Virus record (IMG/VR): IMGVR_UViG_3300025785_000731 | Span: 1 to 24,775 of that record | Reading direction: 5' to 3' (one strand) | DNA: 24,775 bases | Source: a virus | Shown: piece by piece, positions 3,640-21,194 of the stretch | Layout of the letters: the number at the start of each line of letters is the position of its first letter | How positions within the stretch are numbered: position 1 is the first letter of the stretch | Made by a program: the position numbers and the translations under genes | The notes under the pieces: generated by a model | What the model was told of the DNA's origin: nothing | The model's database searches: none | Seen by the model: the letters and a program-made list of their open reading frames with translations, nothing else

Positions 3640-4338
3640 ATGATTAAGCACGTTGGTAAACACAACAACAGAAAAATAGTATTACTATGGCGCAAGGTCC
3701 CAAATGAAGACCATATGGGCCTAGTAGCATACAGCGACACATTGCCACGTATGATCCACGACGAAGTTATGAAAGCATTGGAAAGCCCAATTGGTCAAAA
3801 TGCCACTGACTTCAGCGATGTGCTGTTCCGTACAGTAATGGCCGATGGTCGTAATGCACTTGACGTACTACACAAAGAAGGTTTTATCAAGAAAGTGCCT
3901 ACCAGCCAAATCTTAATCACTCCTACTGCCAAATCAAGTGTGCGCCTAGATGAATTAAACAGCATCTTGGACGAAATGAGCAAAGGTGAGCAAGCTGTCA
4001 AACGCCTAGCTGATCTAGACAAAGAAGCAGGTATGCAGACCAAGAAAGTTCGTCAAGGTCGCGAAGTTGGTATGCCTCCAAACAACACCAGTGTTAGTCG
4101 TACTAACCTAGACGTTGAAGCAACCAACAATGCCGCTGCATACATCAAAGGTGTGTTAAGTGACGATGATCTAGCTGCACAAAGACTAAGTCAAGCTGAA
4201 CAAATGAAAGCACAGGCTGCTCAGTTAATTGCTGAAGCAAAAAGATTAGAAGCCGAAGCATCCACACTGAAACCTGCTAAAAATGCCAAAACAACAAGAG
4301 CCAAAAAAGCCACGCCAGCCAAAAAGCAAGCGGCTTAA
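3640..4338 (+). CDS. Conserved T4-like marine phage protein with coiled coil and Lys/Ala tail
   Basis: This 232-residue protein begins MIKHVGKHNNRKIVLLWRKV, a conserved opening I associate with marine T4-like phages, and contains SDTLPRMIHDEVMKALESPIGQ. Residues about 175-210 form an Ala/Glu/Lys coiled coil. The last 22 residues are a Lys/Ala/Thr/Pro tail reminiscent of histone H1-like tails and could contact nucleic acid. AAGGA lies 9 bases upstream. The tail-coding DNA is also the start of the next gene in another frame (56-base overlap). Function not known to me. Confidence 0.8.
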   Translation: MIKHVGKHNNRKIVLLWRKVPNEDHMGLVAYSDTLPRMIHDEVMKALESPIGQNATDFSDVLFRTVMADGRNALDVLHKEGFIKKVPTSQILITPTAKSSVRLDELNSILDEMSKGEQAVKRLADLDKEAGMQTKKVRQGREVGMPPNNTSVSRTNLDVEATNNAAAYIKGVLSDDDLAAQRLSQAEQMKAQAAQLIAEAKRLEAEASTLKPAKNAKTTRAKKATPAKKQAA

Positions 4339-4630
4339 TTTAAATAGAAAAGACCAGTGGGAAAAGCTCATTAAAGAAATTAACAAAGAGCAAGTACCCA
4401 TTGGTGTGTTACGCTACATCACAGTTAACCTCAAAGACGGTACCAGTGTCGATGTCAACATTGCAGAAATGATTGACGAAGGTGCCGAACCTGAATTTGT
4501 AGAACAACTGATCAATAAAAAATTACACGACCTTGATGACATTATTCAAGACGTTGATTTTCATATCAGTGTAGATAGCGTAGCCAAGTTTATACAACCC
4601 ATCACCGATCAACTCTTAAAAGATTTATGA
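4283..4630 (+). CDS. Conserved phage hypothetical protein, start buried in the upstream gene
   Basis: This 115-residue protein has a basic N-terminus (about 1-25, Lys/Pro-rich), then KRLNLNRKDQWEKLIKEI, a predicted strand pair VLRYITVNLKDGTSVDVNI, and an acidic helical C-terminus (KLHDLDDIIQDVDFHISVDSVAKFI). I recall a similar family in marine T4-like phages. The only ATG is 56 bases inside the previous gene, in the +1 frame, with no good ribosome site, so it probably depends on coupling to the upstream translation. It ends by overlapping the DHFR start (4627-4630). Confidence 0.75.
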   Translation: MPKQQEPKKPRQPKSKRLNLNRKDQWEKLIKEINKEQVPIGVLRYITVNLKDGTSVDVNIAEMIDEGAEPEFVEQLINKKLHDLDDIIQDVDFHISVDSVAKFIQPITDQLLKDL

Positions 4631-5127
4631 TTAATGCCATATTTGCCGTTGACTTCAACGGCGGTATGGGGTTCAACGGTACATTGCCGTGGCCTCATAA
4701 CGCTGAAGATTTAGCCAACTTTCAACGAATAACTGACGGACACGTAGTAGTATGCGGCCGCAATACTTGGGATGATGCCAAGATGCCCAAGCCCCTGCCA
4801 GGTCGTACAGTTTACGTGTTTACACACAAGCCAGTACTACACGCAAGTCCTGTCAGTGGTGACATCAAAGAACGACTGTTAGAACTTGAAAGTCGTCACC
4901 CGGATAAAACTGTGTTTGTGATCGGTGGCGCGGCATTGCTGGAACAAGCACACGATTTGTTTGACAGAATTTATGCCACACATATCAAAGGATCTTATCG
5001 TGCTGATACCAGAATAAATTTAAAAGAAATGCTGACTGGGTTTGTTCCAGTACGTGCTCAAGTCAGTAAGGATTTTCAATCGGTATTCACAATCTATGAT
5101 CCCATCTTTAAACGAGCAAAAACCTAA
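4627..5127 (+). CDS. Dihydrofolate reductase
   Basis: This 166-residue enzyme reduces dihydrofolate to tetrahydrofolate with NADPH, regenerating the cofactor oxidised by thymidylate synthase. Visible landmarks are the Met20-type loop NGGMGFNGTLPW (11-22), the catalytic Asp28 in NAEDLANF, VVVCGRNTW (40-48, NADPH site), PGRTVYVFT (58-66) and VFVIGGAALL (second nucleotide-binding Gly pair). The length matches bacterial and T4 enzymes. It is translationally coupled to the gene before (ATGA) and lies two genes upstream of ThyA. T4 frd is the functional counterpart; orthology is not tested. Confidence 0.93.
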   Translation: MINAIFAVDFNGGMGFNGTLPWPHNAEDLANFQRITDGHVVVCGRNTWDDAKMPKPLPGRTVYVFTHKPVLHASPVSGDIKERLLELESRHPDKTVFVIGGAALLEQAHDLFDRIYATHIKGSYRADTRINLKEMLTGFVPVRAQVSKDFQSVFTIYDPIFKRAKT

Positions 5128-5878
5128 AATATTTGTAGCCGGCCTTAGTTGGGCCATGGGCGAATGGCACGGAGCAGAAGTCATACACGGTGGTATACAA
5201 CAATACTTTACCGAAGCTGGCTATCAAGTTGTTAACTCGGCCAAGCCACGCACATATCATCAAAAAATAAACCAAATCTTAGATCAAAAATTAGCTGAAT
5301 CCTATCAGCCCGGTGACGTAATACTGTGGATACAAGCCGATCCCTTGACAGATCTTATTACACTTGAAAAAATAGAAACAGGTACATTAAAGTCTCACGA
5401 GAATGTGGTATTGCCAAAATTCTCACAATGCATACAACAAGCCGGCGGATTAAAAAATCTAGTTGTTGAGCAACAACAAAAAATTTATTCTCAGCTGAAT
5501 CAAACTGCACAACAGTACAATACTCAAATATACTGTATAGGCGGTACTTTCAACATCAACCAAGACGTAATGGCAGAATTTAAAAATTTAGTCAGCATAG
5601 TACCTTCTTGGATATACTTACTGGTAGGGCACTTTAGCGAGCACAGTCGTTGCCAAAATCAAACCTTTGGTGTGGTACACACGTGGGATCAAGACATTAT
5701 TGATTTTTCAATTTTTGATCGTGAGCTGGGCAAGCGTATATTGGCCGAAGCTGAAGAATTGATCGATAATCTCAAGCTGTTTCGTGAGGATCCGTTTCGG
5801 CCTGACGGCATACATCCGAACCAAGCAGCACATCGAGTGTTGTTTGATTATCTAACGGAAAAATTAAATTTACTTTAA
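5096..5878 (+). CDS. SGNH-hydrolase-like protein, sub-family A, copy 1
   Basis: This protein has 260 residues if started at the ATG at 5096, 32 bases inside the DHFR gene. The reading frame is open further upstream (ATG at 5042), but the homologous copy at 5881 begins just before PKIFVGGGSW, which supports 5096. Landmarks are KIFVAGLSWAMGEW (11-24, block-I-like Ser), ILWIQADPLTDLI (block-III position) and DGIHPNQAAHRVLFDYL near the C-terminus (block V Asp/His). There is no signal peptide, so it should act in the cytoplasm. The paralog follows 2 bases later. It may be an esterase or acetyltransferase of a sugar; the substrate cannot be read. Confidence 0.75.
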   Translation: MIPSLNEQKPKIFVAGLSWAMGEWHGAEVIHGGIQQYFTEAGYQVVNSAKPRTYHQKINQILDQKLAESYQPGDVILWIQADPLTDLITLEKIETGTLKSHENVVLPKFSQCIQQAGGLKNLVVEQQQKIYSQLNQTAQQYNTQIYCIGGTFNINQDVMAEFKNLVSIVPSWIYLLVGHFSEHSRCQNQTFGVVHTWDQDIIDFSIFDRELGKRILAEAEELIDNLKLFREDPFRPDGIHPNQAAHRVLFDYLTEKLNLL

Positions 5879-5880
5879 CA

Positions 5881-6651
5881 ATGCAAAATAAACCTAAAAT
5901 TTTTGTAGGCGGCGGCAGTTGGGCTCGAGGCGAATGGGAAAACGGTAAACCCCGTGTGTTGCATCGTGGATTGGCACAATACTTCGAAGAATACGGATAT
6001 CAAGTGATAGAAGCCAGCCTGGCTCGCAGTTGGCATCAACGATCTATTGTTTCTTTAGAAAGACATATGGAACAACACCACACCGCCGGCGACGTTGTTT
6101 TTTATTTTTTAGCTGATCCGTTGTTGGATATTGTTATGCCGGCCTTGCTTGCAGCACGTCTCCATCGCAATGCAACTGTCAAAAATCTCAAAGGGTTTGC
6201 CGACAAAATCAAAGAAGCTGGCGGAGTCATTGCACTATTACGACGCACACAAGATCAAATTTATCAACAGCTAAACGAAGTAGGCAAACGTTTTGACACC
6301 ACTATACATTGCATAGGTGGCAATTCCAATTTGAACACAAATCTATTTGGCCCATATCAACAGTTGAATCCGTTGGTACCAAGTTTGATGTATATGTTGG
6401 TAGGCCACCTGGACGAACACAAACACATCAATGATCCCGAATTTGTTATCAGTTATACCTGGGGTATTGACTACATTGATTTATCCGATTTTGACGCAGA
6501 CACAGCCAACCGTATTCGACAAGAGGTTGATTCACTACAAGACCATAGTCGTATTATGCAAGAACTTATATTTCATCCAGATGGCTTGCATCCTAACCGC
6601 AAAGGTCATAAAATACTATTTGACTACATAGTGAAACAATTAAATTTATGA
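5881..6651 (+). CDS. SGNH-hydrolase-like protein, sub-family A, copy 2
   Basis: This 256-residue protein is a diverged tandem paralog of the preceding gene. It has KIFVGGGSWARGEW (6-19), VFYFLADPLLDIV, IHCIGGNSNLN, LVGHLDEHKH and the block-V-like HPDGLHPNRKGHKILFDYI. Each of these has a counterpart in copy 1 (TFNIN, LVGHFSEHSR, DGIHPN). The canonical GDSL Ser motif is replaced by GGSW, so catalysis is likely but unproven. It ends in an ATGA overlap with thymidylate synthase, so the pair is wedged inside a dTMP synthesis operon. Confidence 0.75.
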   Translation: MQNKPKIFVGGGSWARGEWENGKPRVLHRGLAQYFEEYGYQVIEASLARSWHQRSIVSLERHMEQHHTAGDVVFYFLADPLLDIVMPALLAARLHRNATVKNLKGFADKIKEAGGVIALLRRTQDQIYQQLNEVGKRFDTTIHCIGGNSNLNTNLFGPYQQLNPLVPSLMYMLVGHLDEHKHINDPEFVISYTWGIDYIDLSDFDADTANRIRQEVDSLQDHSRIMQELIFHPDGLHPNRKGHKILFDYIVKQLNL

Positions 6652-9148: not shown

Positions 9149-10187
9149 GATTGCACTATTCCAAACCGACCGAGCCTGGGCTCAGATTCGTGATGAAGTA
9201 TTTGAGTTAACTGATCGATATCATCAGCAAGGTATTGCCCAAAATGGTGAGCCTGCACAGTTACTGGAAGCCGAACTGTGCCGTCGGTACGATAGAAAAT
9301 ATTGCGTAGTGACGGGTAGCTGTACTGACGCATTAGACCTGGCTCTGCAGGCACTGAAACTGCCGCGAAATGCACGAGTAGCTGTGGGTAATTACACATT
9401 TACCGCCACTGCACACGCCGTTGCTAGAGCAGGCTACCAAGTAGTTCCAATTGATGTGACAGAAAACTACACCATTGATGTATCCAAAATTGGCAAGGTA
9501 GATGCAGTAGTGCCAGTTGACCTTTTTGGTAATATGAGTGATTGGCACAGCTTAACTCGGTTAAGTATGCCCATTGTCAATGATGCTGCTCAAAGTTTAG
9601 AAAGCCACGATTGGGAAAGCTGGAGTGCTAAAAAAGGTCTGATAAGTTGTGTCAGCTTCAGTCCCAGCAAAACTATTTCTAGTTGGGGATCGGGCGGTGC
9701 ATTATTGACTGACAATGAGGACATGGCCAATTTGGCTAGACGTTTACGTATTCACGGTAAATTACGAAACGATGATGTGGCTGTGGGTGCCGGGTTAAAC
9801 AGCATAATGAGCACCATGGAAGTGGCCGCAGTACTGGTAGGACTTAAATATTCCCAAAACTGGCAGGAACGCCGTACCCGAATCAGCGAGTATATAAGAA
9901 CCAATTGCAATTTAAAATCAGCCAACGATTCTACCGGATTAATGAAAAATACCTACCACAAGTTGGTATTTCAAGCAGAAGATCGTGACGAACGAGTAAA
10001 TAACTTAAACAGTCAAGGTATTGGCGCTGCTGTGCATTATCGCCATACAGTCAATGACGAATCTCTCTACACTACAAAACGATCTTTTCCTGTAAGCGAT
10101 AGACTAAAATCTATCAGTTTTACAGTACCAAATCAACACACACTAACTGACGCCGAAGTTGAGCGTATTGTAAAGGCATTAAAATGA
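9138..10187 (+). CDS. DegT/DnrJ/EryC1/StrS-type PLP sugar aminotransferase
   Basis: This 349-residue protein starts at the ATG at 9138, overlapping the PIG-L gene by 11 bases. It shows GSCTDALDLAL (60-70), the PLP ring-binding Asp149 and Gln152 in VNDAAQSLES, the PLP Lys178 in SFSPSKTISSWGSGG, and LNSIMSTMEVAAVLVGL. Homologs transfer an amino group to a keto-sugar nucleotide. With the flanking epimerases it could make an amino sugar for a glycoconjugate or a DNA/virion decoration; which one is inference. It ends in an ATGA overlap with the second epimerase. Confidence 0.9.
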   Translation: MSDKIALFQTDRAWAQIRDEVFELTDRYHQQGIAQNGEPAQLLEAELCRRYDRKYCVVTGSCTDALDLALQALKLPRNARVAVGNYTFTATAHAVARAGYQVVPIDVTENYTIDVSKIGKVDAVVPVDLFGNMSDWHSLTRLSMPIVNDAAQSLESHDWESWSAKKGLISCVSFSPSKTISSWGSGGALLTDNEDMANLARRLRIHGKLRNDDVAVGAGLNSIMSTMEVAAVLVGLKYSQNWQERRTRISEYIRTNCNLKSANDSTGLMKNTYHKLVFQAEDRDERVNNLNSQGIGAAVHYRHTVNDESLYTTKRSFPVSDRLKSISFTVPNQHTLTDAEVERIVKALK

Positions 10188-11152
10188 AAATATTAATATT
10201 GGGCGGGCACGGATTTATTGGGCATCATACAGCTCGTCAACTGTTGGAATCGGGACACGAAATACACACAGTTGACCTACATCATAACTACGGCGAATAC
10301 CAACCGTGGGAATACGAACCGGTTATGGATCAGCGTATCAGTTATATGGGTGCTCATTGTCACTACCAAGGTGATGTATGTGATGCTACATTTATGAACG
10401 CTGTATTCGATGCTGCCAGACCTGATGTGGTTATTGATCTTGCTACATATCCCAATGCCAAGATGGTCAAGAAGAATGTAGTGGATGCCACAACCAATAT
10501 GGTAGCGGCCACTGCTATTGCCTTGGATCTATGTGTCAAGTATGAGGTCAAGCGTTTTGTATTGGCATCGAGCTCAATGGTCTACGGAGACTTCGATGCA
10601 TTTGACGGTGCGCCCAATGAAGATGCGGTATGTAATCCACTGACCTTGTATGGTAGCTATAAACTACAATGCGAACGTATGTGTAAGATTTGGAATAAAG
10701 AACACGGTATAGAATATTCTATTCTGCGTCCAAGCGCATTGTATGGCACAAGAGATATGGTAGTGCGTGTTATTAGTAAAATGACTGTGGCTGCACTCAA
10801 GACTGGTCAGATGATTGTTAATGGCCCAGACAATAAATTGGACTTTAGTTATGTCACTGATGTAGCCAGTGCGTTTGCCGAAGCTGCTGTCAATCCCAAT
10901 GCAGCCAATCAAATCTTTAACTGCACTCGTAACAATGGACGCAAGATTATTGAAGCCGCTGAACTGGTACGTGCTCGTATTCCCGCAGAGATTGTTGTAG
11001 AACCACACGATGCTTTTTATCCCAACCGCGATACCTTAGACAGTAGTCGTATGGTTGAGATGACCAATTGGCGTCCTACAGTTGATATCGAACAAGGTAT
11101 TCCTGCTTACTTGGACTGGTTCCTTGCACAAGACTTCTTAGATCAGTTTTGA
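10184..11152 (+). CDS. NAD-dependent sugar epimerase/dehydratase (extended SDR), copy 2
   Basis: This 322-residue protein has GGHGFIG (7-13) as the dinucleotide motif, VIDLATYPNAK, the catalytic SSSMVYGDF, YGSYK for YxxxK, and ILRPSALYG. It resembles copy 1 in order of motifs and in the HLASFPRQK/DLATYPNAK segment, so the two are related but clearly diverged. It is the last gene of the rightward block. Its stop (11150-11152) lies inside the end of the opposing gene at 11143-11544. Confidence 0.9.
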   Translation: MKILILGGHGFIGHHTARQLLESGHEIHTVDLHHNYGEYQPWEYEPVMDQRISYMGAHCHYQGDVCDATFMNAVFDAARPDVVIDLATYPNAKMVKKNVVDATTNMVAATAIALDLCVKYEVKRFVLASSSMVYGDFDAFDGAPNEDAVCNPLTLYGSYKLQCERMCKIWNKEHGIEYSILRPSALYGTRDMVVRVISKMTVAALKTGQMIVNGPDNKLDFSYVTDVASAFAEAAVNPNAANQIFNCTRNNGRKIIEAAELVRARIPAEIVVEPHDAFYPNRDTLDSSRMVEMTNWRPTVDIEQGIPAYLDWFLAQDFLDQF

Positions 11153-11855: not shown

Positions 11856-12071
11856 TTAAAAACCACCGCCGTCCATATTGATGCTGACACCGACAATTGA
11901 GCTGTCCTGAGTCTTGCTTAAACTGGAAATTGTGGCCATCAAATCGTAAATTTCAGCGTGTAAACTTCTAGCTTCCTGTGCATTTAAGGTCAATAATTTG
12001 CCATTGCTTTGATTCATTGTTCTTACTCGGTCGTTGAACAATTTGATATGAAAAGATAAGTTATTGTCCAT
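11856..12071 (-). CDS. Small hypothetical protein
   Basis: This 71-residue protein is mostly one or two helices (LSFHIKLFNDRVRTMNQSNGKLLTLNAQEARSLHAEIYDLMATISSL) with a C-terminal INMDGGGF. It overlaps the upstream gene by 11 bases. The helical layout suggests a small dimerising protein. Not recognised further. Confidence 0.65.
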   Translation of the reverse strand: MDNNLSFHIKLFNDRVRTMNQSNGKLLTLNAQEARSLHAEIYDLMATISSLSKTQDSSIVGVSINMDGGGF

Positions 12072-12537
12072 TTGCCTCTTTCATTGATTCTATCATACGG
12101 TCTTGAGTCTTGAAAGGACCTTGATATTCGTAACGATTCAACGTAATAAGTTTTGGACAATATGCACGAACCCAAGTACTAGAGAATTTGATAATGTAGT
12201 AGCCAGCACAGAAAAAGCTCTTTGACTTTGCACCTTTTGTGTAAATTGGAAGATAGCGTTGTACATCCAAGACCTGATTGTGTGGTCGACTATTAGTAGG
12301 GAATCCGTAAACATCATATACATCTTGTTTTTCTTTCTTGACTTTTTCTGCCTTGGCAAATTCGATATTGTATTTTTTACTCAACAGTTTGATTGTGGAA
12401 AACATTTCACGTTGATTGTCGTGAACATAAACAAAGCCGCCTTCTTCAATGGCCATTATGTTTCCAACTTTGCGGCCGGAATCTTCTACGATCCACATTT
12501 TATTTTTTACTATGGGTTTTGCTATCAGTTCGGTCAT
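12061..12537 (-). CDS. Conserved phage hypothetical protein
   Basis: This 158-residue protein starts with an ATGA overlap on the preceding SGNH gene. It has a beta-rich N-terminal half (KMWIVEDSGRKVGNIMAIEEGGFVYVH) and a basic middle (KKYNIEFAKAEKVKKEKQ). The C-terminal part contains SKSFFCAGYYIIKFSSTWVRAYCPKLITLNRYEY. It is soluble and lacks catalytic motifs I can name. I associate similar sequences with T4-like marine phages, without a known role. Confidence 0.75.
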   Translation of the reverse strand: MTELIAKPIVKNKMWIVEDSGRKVGNIMAIEEGGFVYVHDNQREMFSTIKLLSKKYNIEFAKAEKVKKEKQDVYDVYGFPTNSRPHNQVLDVQRYLPIYTKGAKSKSFFCAGYYIIKFSSTWVRAYCPKLITLNRYEYQGPFKTQDRMIESMKEANGQ

Positions 12538-15072: not shown

Positions 15073-15101
15073 ATAATAGCATATTATTCATTTAAGGTCA
15101 A
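15073..15101 (-). promoter_or_regulatory. Strong sigma70-type promoter for the 5' nuclease operon
   Basis: On the minus strand TTGACC (15101-15096) and TATTAT (15078-15073) are separated by exactly 17 bases, with TGC just before the -10 (extended -10). The -35 contains the TGA stop of the upstream SGNH gene (15098-15100). The expected start is about 6-7 bases after the -10, which falls on or next to the ATG at 15066. Confidence 0.75.
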
Positions 15102-15838
15102 TCGTTTTTAAAGTAATTTTGGTACAAAAAATCAGCCCAGGCCTTGTGTGCAGATGGCCCAAAATGCATACTGCCGGGCGAAACAGTTTGGTAACTGTGG
15201 GTTTTTAGCCACACACAATAGGTCATTGATTCACTGTAAGGATCAACAAAATGTCTACCCCAATCCAGCTGAGTTCCACCAATATTAGGCACAAATTCAA
15301 AACTGTTAAATGTATTAAAAAACAAATGTGGTATTTTTGCGTCGGCTAATTCTTGATGAAACTGAAAAATTTCTTGGTGCAATGCTAGAGTTTTGGCATT
15401 GATAATTTCGGGCCTGGGCTGATCGATTACCCATTGTCGATACCGATCAGCTAGATCGGCTGGTACGGTTTTGGTACCTCCGCCAGACACCTGATAATAA
15501 ACGCCATCGTGCAACCACTCTTCTCGCTCAAACGGACTCCAACCAATTATGATAAGATCAGGCTGTGTATGTTTGAGATATTCTCTGGTGGTGCGTATGA
15601 TCCTGGCGTTGCTACCACCTGATTGGGCTTCGCACACCAAATTGGCACCCAGTTGATTGGCCAGATGTTGACCGTAACTGCGTTTGATGCATTCAGTGTG
15701 AACATTCTTTCCTAAGATGCTGCCTTGCAGTCTCTGATACTGGCCAGTAACGTCGTCTAGTTCTTTTAATACACCTTTGTGGTTGTGTACCAATTCTGCA
15801 CCAACACTATGGCTGTCGCCGTTTATGTACAGGATCAT
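15098..15838 (-). CDS. SGNH/GDSL-like protein, sub-family B, copy 3
   Basis: This 246-residue protein opens with MILYINGDSHSVGAELV, with Ser9 in the GDS motif. It continues with QRSYG-like KRSYGQHLA, SGGSNARIIRTTREYL, LIIIGWSPFEREEWL, IPHLFFNTF and MHFGPSAHKAWADFLYQNYF. The C-terminal His (PSAH) is at the block-V position, although the usual Asp is Ser here. It overlaps copy 2 by ATGA. No signal peptide. All three copies share the start and the end motif and differ most in the middle, pointing to old tandem duplication. Enzyme activity and substrate are unknown. Confidence 0.8.
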   Translation of the reverse strand: MILYINGDSHSVGAELVHNHKGVLKELDDVTGQYQRLQGSILGKNVHTECIKRSYGQHLANQLGANLVCEAQSGGSNARIIRTTREYLKHTQPDLIIIGWSPFEREEWLHDGVYYQVSGGGTKTVPADLADRYRQWVIDQPRPEIINAKTLALHQEIFQFHQELADAKIPHLFFNTFNSFEFVPNIGGTQLDWGRHFVDPYSESMTYCVWLKTHSYQTVSPGSMHFGPSAHKAWADFLYQNYFKND

Positions 15839-16551
15839 TTGTTGAAGTAGTTTTGATATAAAAAATCAGCCCAGGCGCGGTGAGCGTCCGGCCCATAGTG
15901 GTAAGAATCTGGGGTCACTCGCTGAAATCCACGAAGTCGCAACCATTCAAAATAGGTAAATTGCTTGGAATACGGCTCAAAGTAATGACCCTCCCAATCT
16001 AGGTGATCTTCTTTATCAAACCAACTGTAAGTGTTAAAAAACAAATGCGGAATATCCAATTGATCGAGCTCCTGGTGCAACTGCCAAATTTGAGTGTGGG
16101 CAATCTCCATTGATTTTTTGTGGTCAATTTTTAACACGTATTGTTTATAACGTTCTTTGAATTCGGTAGGCCAATCAAACCCAACGCCGCCACCATTGAT
16201 TTGCCACCATTGCTGTGTGCCTTCGTGAAACCATTCTTCTCTTTCCCAAGTGCTCCATCCAATGATGATCGAATCGGGACGATTGTGTTTGAGGTATTCT
16301 CGAGTGGTTCTAAGTATGCGATCGTTACTGCTGGCTGAAACAGCATCACACACAAATTTGGCGCCAATACGATCGGCCAACAGCTTGCCGTAACTGCGTT
16401 GTACACATTCTGGGTGCGGATCTCGACCCCGAGATTCGCCAATCACTTGCCAATCGTCATCGTCGGTTTCACGTGCTATCAAATAACGTCCTTTGATGTG
16501 AACCAATTCTGAACCAGCACTATGGCTGTCACCGTTTACATATAATATCAT
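15835..16551 (-). CDS. SGNH/GDSL-like protein, sub-family B, copy 2
   Basis: The start is set at the ATG at 16551 (MILYVNGDSHSAGSELV) because the two paralogs begin at the equivalent codon; the frame is open to 16590 but would add residues with no counterpart. The 238-residue product has GDSHSAG, SASSNDRILRTTREYL, IIIGWSTWEREEWFHEG, IPHLFFNTYSWF and YHYGPDAHRAWADFLYQNYF, with Asp and His both present in PDAH. It overlaps the upstream copy by 23 bases. Cytoplasmic by lack of a signal peptide. Confidence 0.8.
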   Translation of the reverse strand: MILYVNGDSHSAGSELVHIKGRYLIARETDDDDWQVIGESRGRDPHPECVQRSYGKLLADRIGAKFVCDAVSASSNDRILRTTREYLKHNRPDSIIIGWSTWEREEWFHEGTQQWWQINGGGVGFDWPTEFKERYKQYVLKIDHKKSMEIAHTQIWQLHQELDQLDIPHLFFNTYSWFDKEDHLDWEGHYFEPYSKQFTYFEWLRLRGFQRVTPDSYHYGPDAHRAWADFLYQNYFNK

Positions 16552-17215
16552 AATTTGTATATAAAAATTCTGCCCAGGCCCTGTGTGCATCTGCTCCGTA
16601 ATGATGCGATCCTGGATTGACTGTTTGAAATCCTCGATTGTTTAGCCAAGCACGATAGGTCAACTCATGGTCATATGGACCAACATAGCTGTCGCCCCAA
16701 TCACGTTTGGGCACTTGAGTAAATGTATCGTAACAATTAAAAAATAAATGGGGTATGTGTTCAAGCTCTTGATGAAATTCCCATATGGCATTGTGGGATT
16801 CGATTACTCGTTGATTATAATTATTATTTATCACCCAATCCCGATGCCATTCAACCACAGCTGCTGGCCAATCAAGACCTACTCCGACGCCGGCAATTTG
16901 CCAGTAAATTCCGTCATACAGATATTCTTCTCTGGTCCAATTGGACCACCCAATGATAATTAAATCTGGACTATTGTTTTTTAAATAGTCTCTGGTGGTG
17001 CGTATAATTCTAGCATTACTGCTGGCCGATTCGGCATCGCAGTCTAACATTGCGTTTAATTTGTTGGCTATTTCGCACCCGTAGCTGACACGTAAATTAT
17101 CTGGGTGTGCTTGACGCCCAAGACCCACATACAACGCATCGTCGTTGGCAAAACAATAAGGATTTACCGCTTGGGCTCCAGCACTATGACTGTCGCCATT
17201 GACATACACAATCAC
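16529..17215 (-). CDS. SGNH/GDSL-like protein, sub-family B, copy 1
   Basis: This 228-residue protein begins MIVYVNGDSHSAGAQAV. It has RVSYGCEIANKL, ESASSNARIIRTTRDYL, LIIIGWSNWTREEYL, IPHLFFNCY and HHYGADAHRAWAEFLYTNY, the same order of blocks as the two following genes. The start overlaps the upstream gene by ATGA. The last residues (DIICKR) lie within the coding start of copy 2, so the triplet is tightly joined. Function unknown; esterase is likely from the GDS and DAH residues. Confidence 0.8.
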   Translation of the reverse strand: MIVYVNGDSHSAGAQAVNPYCFANDDALYVGLGRQAHPDNLRVSYGCEIANKLNAMLDCDAESASSNARIIRTTRDYLKNNSPDLIIIGWSNWTREEYLYDGIYWQIAGVGVGLDWPAAVVEWHRDWVINNNYNQRVIESHNAIWEFHQELEHIPHLFFNCYDTFTQVPKRDWGDSYVGPYDHELTYRAWLNNRGFQTVNPGSHHYGADAHRAWAEFLYTNYDIICKR

Positions 17216-17613
17216 GATACTTCGGTACGTCCGTCACCTAGATCTCTACGATCTATATTGCGTGGTCTGGCCTCCATTGGCTGGTTAGCTTCCCATTGTT
17301 CAAAGTTTTCTGCCAACACATTCTTACATACCTCAGCAAACCAACGATCCACAATGACATTTTCTGCTTCGCCAGCCTTGAGCTGATACCCGGCACGTAC
17401 CAGATTGGTAATAAACTTGTCATTCCAGTCCAGTTCAAATGCACCGTTGCCAATATTCTCAGGATCTAGTTCTACACTGAGAATGGCCACATAAGGTTCG
17501 CCTTTTTCTGTAGCCAATTCCTTGGCAGACTTTTTCTTAGGTTTAGGTTCAGCTTCGGCTTTGGGTTTTTCCTCCACTACCGGTTTCTTTGTAAAACGAT
17601 CTAACAATCCCAT
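17212..17613 (-). CDS. Conserved T4-like marine phage protein with charged N-terminal linker
   Basis: This 133-residue protein begins MGLLDRFTKKPVVEEKPKAE. A Lys/Glu/Pro linker runs to about residue 30, followed by a conserved domain KSAKELATEKGEPYVAILSVELDPENIGNGAFELDWNDKF and a C-terminus RPRNIDRRDLGDGRTEVS. I recall a very similar protein in T4-like cyanophages, annotated only as hypothetical. AGGAG lies about 6 bases before the ATG. It sits between the antiporter and the SGNH triplet. Confidence 0.85.
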   Translation of the reverse strand: MGLLDRFTKKPVVEEKPKAEAEPKPKKKSAKELATEKGEPYVAILSVELDPENIGNGAFELDWNDKFITNLVRAGYQLKAGEAENVIVDRWFAEVCKNVLAENFEQWEANQPMEARPRNIDRRDLGDGRTEVS

Positions 17614-17622
17614 ATTTACTCC

Positions 17623-18792
17623 TTATTTGTTATCCACTGTTGGATCATAAAACATTCTAGCCAATGGCACAGCACTAACAGTACTGATTACACTCATAAT
17701 AACCACGGCTGCAAACATATTAACACTAATGACACCGGCAGTCAACAACATAGTTACCAAGAAGATTTCCATTAGGCCTTTGTTTTGTAGTAGTGCAGTT
17801 TTAAAGAACACAATTCGCATACCTTGATCCTTGTAGGCCAACCAAACACCAACAAACTTTGTCCCAACAGCAATTATGTACATACCAATAGCACCTACTA
17901 GGATAACACCAAAGTCCAATGTCCAATTTGTTTTTAATCCAGACCAGATAAAGAACACAGGCATTAACCAGACCATTTGTTGTGTGGCCATACCTTCATT
18001 CCATTTAACTGTATTTCGTGGTGTAATCATACCTGCCAAGAAAGCACCTAATACGTAATGTAGTCCAGCCCAATGACTAAATGCTGCCATAGATAATACT
18101 AACGCAACAGTTAAATTAGCATATGATTTTTCGCCAACAAGTTCTAAAATCTTTGGCCAGATAAAATATAGCACAGCAACCACAGCAAAGAAAATGCTAG
18201 AATAGACGGCATATTTGCCCATACTAACAATAACAGCAACAGTGACCCATAGCACTAAATCATCAAATGTAACAAGGGCTAATAATTTATGCCCCATCTT
18301 ACTTGGCCACATACCAAGTTCTTTACAAGCAATAACCAACATTGGCATAGCAGTAATACAAGTGGCTACACCCATACCCCAGGCATATTGCCAAAATGGC
18401 CGTTCGGTGGTATGCCAGACTGGATTGTCGAAGAACAACATAAAAGCAGTACCGGCTAACAAGATAGGAACAATAATAACCTGGAACGACTGTGTCCAAA
18501 TACTGTTACCTTCTTGTGCTAAAACTTCCTTGGGTTTAAGATCAATGCCGGCAATGAATGCAAACACGGTAATTGCTAAAATTTGAATAGCATCTAGGCC
18601 TGTGTTGATTGGTTGTGTAAAGACTGTGCTGAACAACTCGGGATAGAACTGTCCTAGCGCACTTGGGCCCATACAAATACCAAATGCAATTTGTGCCATT
18701 GGCAACGGTACCCACTTTTCTAATCTTGTTACCTTTAATATTAGCCACGGCACAAACACCATTGCGGCTATGATGAATAATAAATTTCCCAT
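17623..18792 (-). CDS. CPA2-type cation/proton antiporter, full length
   Basis: This 389-residue polytopic inner-membrane protein has about 12 hydrophobic segments. It carries the hallmarks of the CPA2 (Kef/NapA/GerN-like) family: AGIDLKPKEV (81-90), TAMPML (147-152, unwound helix), the ion-binding Asp pair in TFDDLVLW (Asp177-Asp178), LGAFLAG (248-254), FFIWSGLKTN (280-289) and NKGLMEIFLV (337-346). No regulatory RCK/TrkA domain follows. Members exchange Na+ or K+ for H+. All key residues are present, so it looks functional and would be inserted in the host membrane during infection. The tight spacing to genes of phage type on both sides argues against a misassembly. The ion specificity is not readable. 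Confidence 0.92.
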   Translation of the reverse strand: MGNLLFIIAAMVFVPWLILKVTRLEKWVPLPMAQIAFGICMGPSALGQFYPELFSTVFTQPINTGLDAIQILAITVFAFIAGIDLKPKEVLAQEGNSIWTQSFQVIIVPILLAGTAFMLFFDNPVWHTTERPFWQYAWGMGVATCITAMPMLVIACKELGMWPSKMGHKLLALVTFDDLVLWVTVAVIVSMGKYAVYSSIFFAVVAVLYFIWPKILELVGEKSYANLTVALVLSMAAFSHWAGLHYVLGAFLAGMITPRNTVKWNEGMATQQMVWLMPVFFIWSGLKTNWTLDFGVILVGAIGMYIIAVGTKFVGVWLAYKDQGMRIVFFKTALLQNKGLMEIFLVTMLLTAGVISVNMFAAVVIMSVISTVSAVPLARMFYDPTVDNK

Positions 18793-18793
18793 A

Positions 18794-19279
18794 TTATTTT
18801 ACGTCCTCTTCGGGTACTTCTATCCAGGTGTAATCACCCAACCACTTAACCTGACAAATATATTCATAGTCGGCAGGTGCGCCAGTAGACCAATCGTGTG
18901 GCCCTAAGTGGGTTAATCTGGTTCCTTGCTTGTTGTGTTCGTAAACCAGCCAATACGTTTGGCCGTGGTAGACTTGGAACTCGTATTTAGCGGCGTGTAC
19001 CATGTCGGTAATATCTAATCGCCGTTTCAGTTCTGCAGCCTGACGTTGCAGCACTTCGACCAATTCTGTGATGCGATTGTATTCTTGTTGAGCATACATA
19101 CGGGCCACATTGACCATGATGTCTTTTTGTTTCTCAACTGGAATAAGATCAAATTTAACACCACCGGCTTCGGTTGGGTAAGTGCTTACGTTGCGATTGA
19201 AAAATGCAACCAAGGTATTGCCGACTGTGATGTCAAAACTTTCACGACCATCGGACACGTTTGATTTCTTGTTATCCAC
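18794..19279 (-). CDS. Conserved phage protein, DUF2452-like
   Basis: This 161-residue protein has an N-terminal IPVEKQKDIMVNVARMYAQQEYNRITELVEVLQRQAAELKRRLD helix (probable coiled coil, 45-90). A C-terminal domain AAKYEFQVYHGQTYWLVYEHNKQGTRLTHLGPHDWS... resembles DUF2452 as I remember it. No catalytic residues are evident. It overlaps the upstream small gene by 8 bases and directly precedes the antiporter gene. Confidence 0.7.
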   Translation of the reverse strand: MDNKKSNVSDGRESFDITVGNTLVAFFNRNVSTYPTEAGGVKFDLIPVEKQKDIMVNVARMYAQQEYNRITELVEVLQRQAAELKRRLDITDMVHAAKYEFQVYHGQTYWLVYEHNKQGTRLTHLGPHDWSTGAPADYEYICQVKWLGDYTWIEVPEEDVK

Positions 19280-19523
19280 GTTTCAATTGCCAAATAAGAT
19301 GTTCTACCGTTTCGTGATAACGATGTTCAATCACCGGATCACCGGGTCCGGTCCATACGGCTGTGCCCCGATAGGCCCAACATAACCATATCCACTGACC
19401 GGTCAGGTCACTGCGGCGTGGCCACCATACAAATTTTAATGCCCACACAGCTCTATTATAAAACGGGTCGTAAGTTTGATCCATACCGGGTATTGGCATA
19501 CTAGAAATAAATCCAGGCCACAT
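19272..19523 (-). CDS. Small conserved phage protein, Trp-rich
   Basis: This 83-residue protein contains WALKFVWWPRRSDLTGQWIWLCWAYRGTAVWTGPGDPVIEHRYH. The WxGPGDPVxEHR part is one I recall in marine phage small proteins. It could be a small membrane-peripheral or nucleic-acid protein, but nothing decides. The ATG overlaps the QueE stop by one base. Confidence 0.7.
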   Translation of the reverse strand: MWPGFISSMPIPGMDQTYDPFYNRAVWALKFVWWPRRSDLTGQWIWLCWAYRGTAVWTGPGDPVIEHRYHETVEHLIWQLKRG

Positions 19524-20383
19524 TACTTGCCCCAGCCGTTACCCCAAAGATCCACGTGCAATCTAGGGCTGTAATTGAACCCGCGTTCACAGCAGATATT
19601 GGCAATGTTTAATTTGTTGGCATCATATGGCGTAACAACACCGCCCTGTGGCATTAGGTATACTGTACCTTTGAATCCACCTGCACGAAAAGCATCTACA
19701 GCTCGAACAGCTTCGTTGACATGATCTTCAGTTTCAACAACAAATTTGAGATACACGTGCCCATATGTTTGATAAATGTTGACAACCAATGGTTTGATGG
19801 CATCTTCCCACAGTTCGCCGCTTGCACTCAGTTTGGCACTGACGCTAAACGTGACTTCACGTCCAGGTACAGCTTCAGCCCAGTCAATCAAATAATCACG
19901 AAAATCTTCGTGCAGTTCTTGAGTGCCGTTGGTCTCAAATGTGATATTTTTTAAATCTTTCATACCAGGATGACTCAACAATTCTGCATAAGCACGTTGC
20001 CAACCCAACAAAGGTTCGCCACCGGTAATTACCAAATGCACATCATTGCCATTGGCTTGCATCCAATGACCGTTGGGAGTTAGTGCCAACATTCGATCTA
20101 CCAGCTCATCTGTAGTGTAAGTGGGCGACAAATGTTTGAATGCCGGATGCCAACTTGCATAACTGTCGCAACCGGTTTCTACCAAAGGCAAATCCAAGAA
20201 GTCTTTGTACAGTTCTACTTTTTTGGCAACTTCATCAGCACCTGTACTTTTTTCTCCCGGCTTGCATCCAAACCCGCTACAAGTAAAGTTACATCCGTAT
20301 GTTCTCAAGAATACAGATGGTACTCCCACAAAGCGACCTTCGCCTTGTAGACTGTAAAATATTTCGCTGACTTTAATTTTCAT
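19523..20383 (-). CDS. queE: 7-carboxy-7-deazaguanine synthase (QueE), radical SAM
   Basis: This 286-residue protein converts carboxy-tetrahydropterin to CDG, the third step toward 7-deazaguanines. It has SLQGEGRFVGVPSVFLRTYGCNFTC (11-35), the SAM-binding GGEPLL (121-126), ETNGTQEL and a C-terminal RLHVDLWG. The cluster motif is unusual: Cys31-x3-Cys35 is followed by Cys40 and an insert, and CDSYASW (Cys72) matches the usual third Cys that precedes Asp-Thr/Ser. Either Cys40 or Cys72 may be the third ligand. It overlaps the MazG-like gene by 11 bases and shares an operon with QueD. Confidence 0.9.
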   Translation of the reverse strand: MKIKVSEIFYSLQGEGRFVGVPSVFLRTYGCNFTCSGFGCKPGEKSTGADEVAKKVELYKDFLDLPLVETGCDSYASWHPAFKHLSPTYTTDELVDRMLALTPNGHWMQANGNDVHLVITGGEPLLGWQRAYAELLSHPGMKDLKNITFETNGTQELHEDFRDYLIDWAEAVPGREVTFSVSAKLSASGELWEDAIKPLVVNIYQTYGHVYLKFVVETEDHVNEAVRAVDAFRAGGFKGTVYLMPQGGVVTPYDANKLNIANICCERGFNYSPRLHVDLWGNGWGK

Positions 20384-20645
20384 ATATCTTTGACCATTTG
20401 ACTAATTTTTGACTTTTCCTCACTTGTGCTTCTCTCAATTCTGAATCGGTATAGACACCGTGCGACTTGAGCAATTCAATTAATAGTGTAACATCTCCTA
20501 GCTCTTGAATCAAGTGTTCACGTTGAGTGCCGCCTTCTTTGTATGAATTGTCAATACCAAAACGACGAATTTTACTGATGGCCTGTATGACTTCGGCACA
20601 CTCTTCTTGAAGTATGTCTAGTATTTCGTTTACTTTAGCGTTCAC
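20373..20645 (-). CDS. MazG-like nucleotide pyrophosphohydrolase
   Basis: I choose the GTG at 20645, which makes a GTGA overlap with QueD and has GAGGA 9 bases upstream. An ATG at 20666 in the same frame gives seven more residues and is the alternative. The product (90 residues) is one all-helical MazG-fold domain with EECAEV and ELGDV as the magnesium-binding pairs. Such enzymes hydrolyse nucleoside triphosphates or alarmones. It is placed between QueD and QueE, so it may trim nucleotides for the deazaguanine route, but that is inference. Confidence 0.85.
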   Translation of the reverse strand: MNAKVNEILDILQEECAEVIQAISKIRRFGIDNSYKEGGTQREHLIQELGDVTLLIELLKSHGVYTDSELREAQVRKSQKLVKWSKIYEN

Positions 20646-21145
20646 GCAAACAAGTCCTCGTTCCATTCACGATGGCCTTCACGGTATGCCATATTGCTTT
20701 GCGTTTCTCTAACTTCCACGCGATAGCACCAAAGTCTATCTGCTTCTGCTTGACCCCACATATCCGGGATATAAACACCGTTAACATATTTGTATAGTTG
20801 ATCTGCCAGACCTTCGCAACCTAGTTTAGGTAGAATAGTTAGTTTGGCAAGATTCTTTTCTTGTAGTAATTTGTAAGTTTCAAGTTCGGGATCGTCTTCT
20901 GCTACTAACAGCGTATGATCAAATTGACTTTCTAAAATGCCTTTTAGTTCTTTTAAGCCGCCGTAGTCAGCAGCCCAGTTGCGTACATCCAAATTGTCTG
21001 TGCCAAAGTAAAACTTCATACTAAATGAATAGCCGTGAATTAAATTACAATGACTGTCGGCACGCCATTGGCGGTAAGCGCAAGGAAATGCGTCGTGGTA
21101 CTCTTTGGTACTTGTGTATTTGTATTGTCTAGATTGGTTTGCCAT
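20642..21145 (-). CDS. queD: 6-carboxy-tetrahydropterin synthase (QueD)
   Basis: This 167-residue protein is of the PTPS/QueD fold and makes carboxy-tetrahydropterin from dihydroneopterin triphosphate, the FolE product. It shows RADSHCNLIHGYSF with the catalytic Cys33 and zinc His37, and DHTLL (Asp76-His77). The usual HGH is HGY, so Tyr replaces one zinc His; His17 and His32 are possible substitutes. AGGAG lies 7 bases before the ATG and a clear promoter precedes it. First gene of the operon with MazG-like and QueE. Confidence 0.9.
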   Translation of the reverse strand: MANQSRQYKYTSTKEYHDAFPCAYRQWRADSHCNLIHGYSFSMKFYFGTDNLDVRNWAADYGGLKELKGILESQFDHTLLVAEDDPELETYKLLQEKNLAKLTILPKLGCEGLADQLYKYVNGVYIPDMWGQAEADRLWCYRVEVRETQSNMAYREGHREWNEDLFA

Positions 21146-21154
21146 TGTGATTCT

Positions 21155-21177
21155 CCTATGTTAGATTATAGCATAGG
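21155..21177. promoter_or_regulatory. Inverted repeat around the queD -10 box (possible operator)
   Basis: CCTATG at 21155-21160 and CATAGG at 21172-21177 form a perfect 6-bp dyad with 11 bases between, centred on the -10 box (21165-21170). One arm overlaps the predicted transcript start. This is the geometry of a repressor site but no regulator is identified. Confidence 0.45.
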
Positions 21178-21194
21178 CTTGCAGAATTTGTAAA
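21165..21194 (-). promoter_or_regulatory. Sigma70-type promoter for the queD operon
   Basis: On the minus strand TTTACA (21194-21189), an 18-base spacer and TATAAT (21170-21165) preceded by TGC form a good extended -10 promoter. The predicted start is about 13 bases before the queD ATG, leaving room for the AGGAG ribosome site. A second dyad, AAGCGG/CCGCTT, lies upstream at 21193-21222 and overlaps the -35. Confidence 0.75.

Follow-up and report, generated by a model that had tools for sequence, protein, structure and literature searches.

The antiporter gene and its predicted fold

We analyzed a stretch of viral DNA of 24,775 nucleotides (nt) (IMG/VR record IMGVR_UViG_3300025785_000731, hereafter called the window), in which an open reading frame (ORF) on the minus strand (17623–18792) encodes a protein of 389 amino acids (aa) with an ATG start and no internal stops. 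The original prediction had described this gene as an intact CPA2-type cation/proton antiporter, and all of the quoted motifs were recovered in the ORF: ITAMPML (from residue 146), the pair D177/D178, LGAFLAG, FFIWSGL and NKGLMEI. The protein matches the Pfam family PF00999 (Na_H_Exchanger) with 79.3 bits (cut-off 26.2, E = 3.2e-22), which places it in the cation/proton antiporter (CPA) superfamily; PF00999 is its sole Pfam family and the protein stops after the last helix. The earlier observation is confirmed in this way, and its interpretation is partly supported. The main feature of the locus is not visible from the window sequence alone: the antiporter occupies a slot that is filled in sister phages by one of two unrelated membrane proteins, either a phage protein of ~117 aa (M117) or a TauE/SafE permease.

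The gene order at the locus is queD–mazG–queE–83-aa gene–DUF2452–antiporter–133-aa gene, all on the minus strand, and the genes ahead of the antiporter overlap or abut. The tight spacing of 1–9 bp among phage-type genes was found as described, with 1 base to the upstream gene (18794–19279) and 9 bases to the downstream gene (17212–17613). The upstream neighbor encodes a DUF2452 protein of 161 aa (PF10504, E = 3.5e-7) and forms the upstream border of the slot in the window lineage; a DUF2452 gene also adjoins the slot in one antiporter contig (L009) and one M117 contig (L323). It is preceded by the gene of an 83-aa protein (19272–19523; cluster k23/c44), which by neighborhood comparison is a frequent upstream neighbor in the window's type of context (context B, see below), and by genes for a QueE-like radical SAM protein (19523–20383; phrog_2076, E = 3.2e-53), a MazG-like pyrophosphohydrolase (20373–20666; PF03819, E = 2.2e-5; phrog_4856) and a QueD-like 6-pyruvoyl-tetrahydropterin synthase (20642–21145; PF01242; phrog_2389). 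The downstream border is the gene of the 133-aa protein (cluster k16/c17), which matches a virion structural family (phrog_13349, E = 1.5e-11). Upstream of queD a candidate promoter for the array was found by consensus match (21165–21194, minus strand), a sigma-70-like site matching 11 of 12 positions with a TG before the −10 element. However, such sites are not rare here (31 in the scan versus 21.4, sd 4.4, in shuffles), so that of the claimed queD transcription unit the overlapping or abutting array stands, and a single unit reaching from queD to the antiporter is rated as likely at most.

The residues expected at the transport site are strongly conserved. The first predicted discontinuous helix break (residues 146–149, Ile-Thr-Ala-Met; 18346–18357, minus strand, from model and alignment) corresponds to positions 1–4 of the CPA motif, with I146, T147 and A148 in 21 of 21 phage rows and M, L or I at residue 149. 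Motif position 5 is L173 in 20 of the 21 rows and I in the remaining one, and position 8 is lysine in all. Asp177-Asp178 (18259–18264, minus strand), the DD ion/proton-binding pair, and Lys312 (codon at 17857–17859, minus strand) were observed in 21/21 phage rows as well as in 76/76 rows of a larger alignment, composed of 22 rows from the window and viral contigs and 54 bacterial rows. For the second break (residues 336–342, QNKGLME; 17767–17787, minus strand, again from model and alignment), Q336, K338, G339, L340 and E342 are present in every phage row, while residue 337 is N in 15 and T in the other 6. According to the motif passages of PMC6181914, the combination of Asp6, Asp7 and Lys8, which the phage rows share, is the mark of electrogenic CPA2s, and a non-polar residue at position 4 accompanies the Na+-selective CPA2 clades. 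The ratio of non-synonymous to synonymous changes (dN/dS) across 12 phage antiporter pairs was 0.035–0.123 by simple counting, with several pairs near saturation, and indicates strong purifying selection.

A first structure model built from 16 phage sequences only was unusable (pLDDT 47), and a model from the 76 rows took its place. In this AlphaFold2 model (pLDDT 88.2, pTM 0.85) two crossing discontinuous helices are predicted to be broken at residues 146–148 and 336–340, as in the NhaA-type fold. The best solved match of the model in Foldseek was inward-facing NapA (5bz2; E 1.6e-10, TM 0.74), and VIA-align returned the same entry as best (Z 35.8, 365 aligned residues, rmsd 3.7). The original prediction had suggested a comparison of this kind, and the predicted fold does align with the CPA2 core. 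On the profile level NapA was matched with an E of 7e-11 from the phage rows only and 1.4e-21 with the bacterial kin included. The PDB fold library covers part of the antiporter families, and absences there were not interpreted. Taken together, the Pfam match, the published motif rules and the predicted fold support an assignment of the antiporter to the CPA2 type.

With NapA, the Na+/H+ antiporter of Thermus thermophilus (4bwz, 5bz2), the phage protein has in common the predicted fold, the DD pair, the lack of a C-terminal domain, a transmembrane lysine (phage K312 aligned to NapA K305) and a basic residue where the second helix is broken (K338, opposite R331 in NapA). It differs by being phage-borne, by an identity of 21%, by I-T-A-M where NapA has A-T-S-V and by L340/E342 in place of E333/G335 in the profile alignment. 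The K+/H+ exchanger KefC (8bxg, 8by2, 9emb) is similar in fold (Z about 28.5), but the phage protein has DD instead of QD and ends without an RCK regulatory domain. A link between the QD motif and K+ selectivity in KefC is drawn in a passage of PMC11150392; we rejected Kef-type K+ efflux on the basis of DD in 21/21 rows and the missing C-terminal RCK/KTN domain. A CPA1 protein (NhaP/NHE) was rejected as well, as it needs Glu5 and Arg8 whereas the phage rows have Leu/Ile and Lys. The best-scoring cellular kin among the searches run is a proteobacterial 'cation:proton antiporter' family (Variovorax, Polaromonas, Dechloromonas and others; L055, L086–L165), which shares G-L-H-[YF], D-D, the lysine and L-L-Q-x-K and is the nearest cellular group in the tree described below, but is only about 26–31% identical and stands apart, both groups being fully supported and on long stems.

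Distribution and phylogeny of the phage antiporters

Scans of IMG/VR yielded 25 and then 33 distinct viral contigs with relatives of the antiporter. The match spans all or nearly all of the query in 25 of them (58–100% identity), is cut by the contig end in 5 and covers residues 247–388 only in 3. In the last group (L022:2217-2696, L051:9950-10429, L052:3201-3680) the last third of the antiporter stands behind a new short start, which looks like a decaying or lost occupant. Six antiporter contigs are large (345,369, 345,154, 262,308, 198,723, 158,310 and 133,207 bases), and the smallest of these encodes 26 of 26 compared minus-strand proteins of the window at 100%; a search for the same gene with the same neighbors, which the original prediction had proposed, was successful in this respect. 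Of 12 records (the window and 11 contigs), 6 contain the T4-type major capsid family PF07068, which gave no hit in 14 cellular controls. A large-terminase match was also present in 6 of the 12 records, but it is a weaker phage mark because it occurs in 11 of the 14 controls too. We take the phages that carry the antiporter to be a T4-type lineage of very large size. Two of the matches were irregular: one terminase match lies in two pieces with two stops in the first (G906:C1:44676-47403), possibly owing to an intron, an inserted gene or an assembly error, and one capsid-family match contains an in-frame TAA (G903:C1:193317-194306), possibly a frameshift or an alignment edge.

The original prediction had regarded antiporters as uncommon in phages. 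This holds for annotated phage genomes, where 50,697 records contained five unannotated gut contigs only (24–26% identity), for the PHROGs, with no antiporter match at E ≤ 0.01, and for the BFVD viral structures, with no fold match at E ≤ 0.001; the 33 environmental viral contigs speak against it. When antiporters of other types were used as queries against viral contigs, the gut type had one close match (L221) and a Novosphingobium type had none. PADLOC gave no hit for the antiporter or among the ten window proteins tested, and membership in a defense system was rejected on this basis. In the open-access literature we found no description of a phage-encoded CPA-type antiporter: the antiporter passages in PMC9414953, PMC13059738, PMC10300362, PMC8754663, PMC7567579, PMC12406683, PMC11291895, PMC10470597 and PMC7452160 deal with cellular genes only, and the words antiporter, transporter and permease are absent from the main text of PMC7824862 and, as whole words (plurals not covered), from PMC13282480.

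In a maximum-likelihood tree of 70 rows, with two very long rows and a bootstrap that had yet to converge fully, 22 phage antiporters formed one group (100/100) on a long stem, far from the bacterial rows. The trees contain 22 of the 25 full-length antiporters; L029, L040 and L046 were omitted, their matches being equal to L028, L031 and L045. Profile searches around one Polaromonas genome found antiporters in 2 of 274, 24 of 398 and 38 of 250 genomes (thresholds 1e-20, 1e-25 and 1e-25; best 212.6 bits), all of them outside the phage group where they were placed in the tree. Moreover, 80 genome_contigs stretches matched the phage alignment by pattern and none encoded a relative, and the best plasmid match was about 31% identical. 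Given the empty pattern scan, the plasmid identities and the long tree stem, we rejected a close bacterial donor.

Alternative occupants of the slot

For the comparison of loci we examined 165 sites, 158 with an occupant and 7 without (five loci of the small protein C4 described below, and L321 and L362, which have no called M117 ORF). As 26 loci were second fetches and were merged, 132 contigs remained (33 with the antiporter, 95 with M117 and 4 with TauE/SafE), the window standing for its 133-kb twin among the 33 antiporter loci. We observed that 30 of these 33 lie in contexts, named A–F, that also hold M117 and/or TauE/SafE, 20 of them judged by both flanks (contexts A, B, C and F) and 10 by one. 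In context A, between clamp-like and DpdA-like genes, the antiporter was found in 10 contigs (plus 3 by one flank) and M117 in 39. Context B is the window's own and reaches from queE or the 83-aa gene to the 133-aa gene, which comes after antiporter, M117 and TauE/SafE loci alike; it contains the antiporter in 6 contigs (3 truncated; plus 1 by one flank), TauE/SafE in 2 and M117 in 6. All three occupants occur twice each in context C, before a sugar-nucleotide gene. Context D, judged by the following GNAT-like and Bax-inhibitor-like genes, holds 3 (plus 2) antiporter and 4 (plus 2) M117 contigs, context E, judged by the preceding gene, 1 and 2, and context F, where the occupant separates a helicase gene from the gene that usually comes after it, 2 and 6. 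M117 was found in 34 further contigs outside these contexts. Contigs were counted here, not independent events: grouped at 95% protein identity, those of context A reduce to 6 antiporter and 22 M117 lineages.

Several of the names used for flanking genes are our presumption, namely 'DpdA-like' for cluster c5/k4, which matched neither Pfam nor the PHROGs, 'GNAT' for c37, 'sugar-nucleotide gene' for c11/k15 and 'clamp' for c3/k2, which matches the functionally unassigned phrog_12062 and has a relative annotated as PCNA or sliding clamp in two records. A family of ~520–570 aa beside the slot (L028:11415-13118 and relatives, among them PA5oct, L369:5075-6697) has no Pfam or PHROG match and, with its GDSGGFQ motif, looks by eye like the tRNA-guanine/DNA deazaguanine transglycosylases, which we take as a provisional label. 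Near the slot in L044 (11959-12630) we also observed a membrane protein of the Bax-inhibitor-1 family (PF01027, 3e-54), with the same cluster in L050, L053, L257 and L275. Members of this family elsewhere are pH-sensitive ion leaks.

The three occupants exclude each other in all data compared. Two types were found together in none of the 132 contigs (158 loci) within the stretch around each locus. When records were searched whole, 12 on the antiporter side (the window and 11 contigs, one with a truncated gene) contained neither M117 nor a phage-type TauE/SafE, 9 M117 records contained neither PF00999 nor TauE/SafE, and 2 TauE/SafE records contained neither other type; the search for TauE/SafE relied on a profile of just three phage copies. 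The slot thus combines homologous flanks, several contexts and one type per genome, in a sample biased by the queries. By hhalign, neither M117 (probability 0.9%) nor TauE/SafE (0.8%) showed homology to the antiporter. The TauE/SafE (TSUP) permeases, present in four contigs (L251, L262, L266, L277), belong to a different family, and two members that were scanned matched PF01925 (3e-14 and 1.8e-13). M117 shares the slot in contexts A–F and has a third of the size of the antiporter.

M117 (for example L232:3618-3968) is common, with at least 525 matching stretches in IMG/VR, the best 80 of which were retained. Three members gave nothing in Pfam at E ≤ 1 or in the PHROGs at E ≤ 0.01, and weaker PHROG matches (E 0.016 and 0.09) were taken as chance; searches of M117 against PDB profiles (E 10), INPHARED and plasmids (PLSDB) were also empty. 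Its hydropathy suggests three to four helices, and in 69 sequences E49 and K56 are invariant, a Glu/Lys pair that would lie in or beside a membrane helix. A small soluble protein named C4 (~83 aa) also recurred in the neighborhoods compared; its sequence ends in DPLxPPxGWxxDPYYExWI. A search of viral contigs for C4 returned 54 loci, of which 52 were new; among the new loci the occupant was M117 in 34, the antiporter in 9, TauE/SafE in 4 and none of the three in 5. Of the antiporter loci compared, 11 of 31 have C4 beside them, and none of the window-type loci does within the flanks covered, for which reason we rejected C4 as an obligate partner. DUF2452 sits in its place in the window and has no similarity to it.

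Direct swaps of the occupant were seen in two pairs, with junctions within about 30 bases of the start and stop codons. Seventeen locus pairs were compared at the DNA level. In the closest pair, the antiporter contig L031 and the TauE/SafE contig L266, the flanks are 92–93% identical and the break extends over 9985–11152 in the former and 4190–5128 in the latter. Between L009 (antiporter) and L323 (M117), with flanks that are 84% and 95% identical, the replacement spans start to stop codon, and L323 is syntenic with the window itself, at 77–78% on the two immediate flanks. On a tree of the 22 antiporters, 9 changes are required to account for the seven contexts (minimum 6). Its starred branches force 4 changes in context A, 3 in B and 2 in F, and the nearest kin of the window antiporter lie in context A. 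A single clade for context A was rejected (p-AU 2e-50), in a test posed with an earlier tree already known. From the excess of context changes the antiporter appears, as far as sequences can tell, to have moved between phages into like slots, and it is chiefly on these grounds that we favor a need common to the occupants over an insertion site hit by chance.

Proposed function and competing explanations

We propose, with a probability of roughly 0.6, that the protein is a working inner-membrane CPA2 antiporter and that the unrelated occupants of the slot meet one need of the phage. Of the parts of this reading, the functional equivalence of the occupants seems very likely from the genomic comparison, transport by the antiporter is a good expectation, and a benefit in which the phage controls pH, Na+/K+ or the membrane potential is put forward tentatively. 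After infection the phage would make the antiporter in the host inner membrane, where its core domain may move as an elevator and exchange a cytoplasmic cation for protons. By the published motif rule this cation would most likely be Na+/Li+, with K+ also possible. The two buried aspartates and Lys312 would make the exchange electrogenic, so that membrane potential would be spent, protons would move inward and the cation would be exported. The probable activity is thus electrogenic Na+ (or K+)/H+ exchange, and the phage might gain control of the cytoplasmic pH and cation balance or of the membrane potential in the infected cell. An adjustment of host pH or Na+/K+ during infection, one of the roles named in the original prediction, is plausible in this light. 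Since the slot holds only one of these unrelated membrane proteins in each case, a common need, met by non-homologous replacement, is the most likely explanation. This suggests that the phages require a protein of this kind in the host membrane and obtain it in different ways. C4, when present, would be a candidate small soluble partner.

An independent hint at a need comes from expression data on host genes. In passages of the respective reports, nhaA alone among the Serratia genes stays raised for the whole of infection by JS26 (PMC8754663), host nhaA is induced under ICP1 infection (PMC7567579), and a host Na+/H+ antiporter family protein is induced in the accumulation phase of infection by the jumbo phage SA1 (PMC9414953). 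Such induction agrees with a problem of cations or pH in the infected cell, which some phages may solve themselves. The position of the antiporter is informative here: phage accessory genes are usually catalogued singly, and the antiporter alone would pass as a curiosity. If the occupants are truly interchangeable, the antiporter, whose kind is known, points to what M117, a common phage protein, is likely to do, and the demands of jumbo phages on the host membrane become testable with interchangeable parts. Going further, and with less confidence than in any part of the proposal above, one may speculate that large T4-type phages have a dedicated 'membrane-energetics' slot for a single inner-membrane protein per genome, drawn from at least three unrelated kinds (a NapA-like antiporter, TauE/SafE or M117), in which M117 would be a minimal stand-in for a 389-aa proton-coupled antiporter and C4 a frequent partner, and that the slot sets host proton and cation flux for replication or for shutting out rivals.

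A number of observations weigh against the proposed reading. For the antiporter itself, the NCBIfam CPA2 model TIGR00932 gives 73.6 bits, below its cut-off of 238.3, although three proteobacterial kin that were tested likewise fail this cut-off (72.5–82). The good structure model leans on the 54 bacterial rows, and the other NapA entry, 4bwz, scores with Z 26.2 under SOS1, NhaP and KefC chains (Z 28–33), so that the predicted fold settles the superfamily and not the subfamily. Regarding the slot, loci were sampled by antiporter, C4 and M117 searches and other occupants would therefore go unseen; among the 23 records searched whole for exclusion some look like near copies and none is known to be complete. 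Three antiporter loci, near AhpC-like/AhpD-like genes, showed no alternative occupant, five of the 52 C4 loci, some near a contig end, hold none of the three, and among the three contigs with the truncated antiporter (83% identical, residues 247–388) a search of one over its full 65 kb showed no other occupant. In cultured phages other proteins were found: PA5oct, a relative of context A, has an 86-aa protein of low hydropathy in the slot without similarity to any occupant, and Vibrio phage 2.275.O has proteins of 60 and 159 aa there. As M117 matched no characterized family in the searches above, a property shared by the occupants is not to be read from it. Finally, the context changes on the tree could also arise from rearranged flanks.

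The best rival is superinfection exclusion, in which the occupant would block DNA injection by a second phage through a change in the host membrane or membrane potential, the proteins being diverse because the rivals differ. One modular membrane protein per genome that apparently moves between loci would be expected for phage–phage conflict genes, and some slots lie near the DNA polymerase (context A) or adjoin a helicase gene (context F). The imm gene of T4 adjoins the T4 DNA polymerase gene, which is a positional parallel only. Membrane components (TerC) have been proposed among the superinfection barriers of jumbo phages in a passage of PMC7824862. However, the invariant transport residues under strong purifying selection suggest that catalysis and not mere presence is kept, PADLOC had no hit for the antiporter, and neither M117 nor the TauE/SafE slot members have a PHROG match at E ≤ 0.01, so that no link to annotated exclusion proteins was found. 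We consider this explanation unlikely, if the most serious of the alternatives.

An ordinary auxiliary metabolic gene, derived from the host and helping the infected cell under salt or alkaline stress in a slot that is merely a tolerant insertion site, is also improbable. It would agree with antiporters being ordinary in cells (PF00999 in 13 of 14 control genomes) and with the metabolic genes QueD, QueE and MazG among the window neighbors. A tolerant site, however, is expected to hold varied or several genes, whereas the same families recur singly in six contexts, albeit in a sample drawn with these families, and the missing near bacterial source, the plasmid identities and the long stem do not point to a host-derived gene. 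A role in lysis timing, which the original prediction had raised, would have the antiporter lower the proton motive force late and help to trigger holins; an electrogenic H+ influx could in principle lower the membrane potential. We regard it as very improbable: no lysis gene was recognized beside the antiporter, the annotated neighbors being replication, radical-SAM/pterin and other metabolic genes, though many neighbors carry no annotation. Replication genes, of the sort that adjoin some slots, are as a rule expressed ahead of lysis. An assembly chimera or bacterial contamination, conceivable for a family as widespread in cells as PF00999, is ruled out by the 33 independent contigs and the phage-only tree group, together with the capsid gene in 6/12 records against 0/14 controls, the 133-kb twin with the same array and the lack of a close viral match to the Novosphingobium-type query; the phylogeny, by which the original prediction had thought a chimera might be exposed, speaks for a genuine phage gene.

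Further observations concern the surroundings of the antiporter. In three contigs (L047:8927-9487 and 11878-12390; also L036 and L039) the antiporter lies between a peroxiredoxin (AhpC-TSA) and a CMD/AhpD-like gene, flanks that hint at a peroxide or thiol-stress cassette, with Pfam run on L047 only. The corresponding coordinates of PA5oct also carry a gene in Paride, and Sinorhizobium phage Phosso has other genes there, so that these cultured phages supply no isolate for tests of the slot. In the window, tandem related genes with a GDSHS-like motif were found at 15098–17215 (minus strand, three genes) and at 5042–6651 (plus strand); the scanned member (16529–17215) had no Pfam or PHROG match, and by eye we take them to be SGNH-hydrolase-like. 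The plus strand between 4627 and 11152 encodes DHFR, thymidylate synthase, nucleotide-sugar dehydratase/epimerase-like and deacetylase-like proteins and a PseC-like aminotransferase, and constitutes a block of nucleotide and surface-sugar genes.

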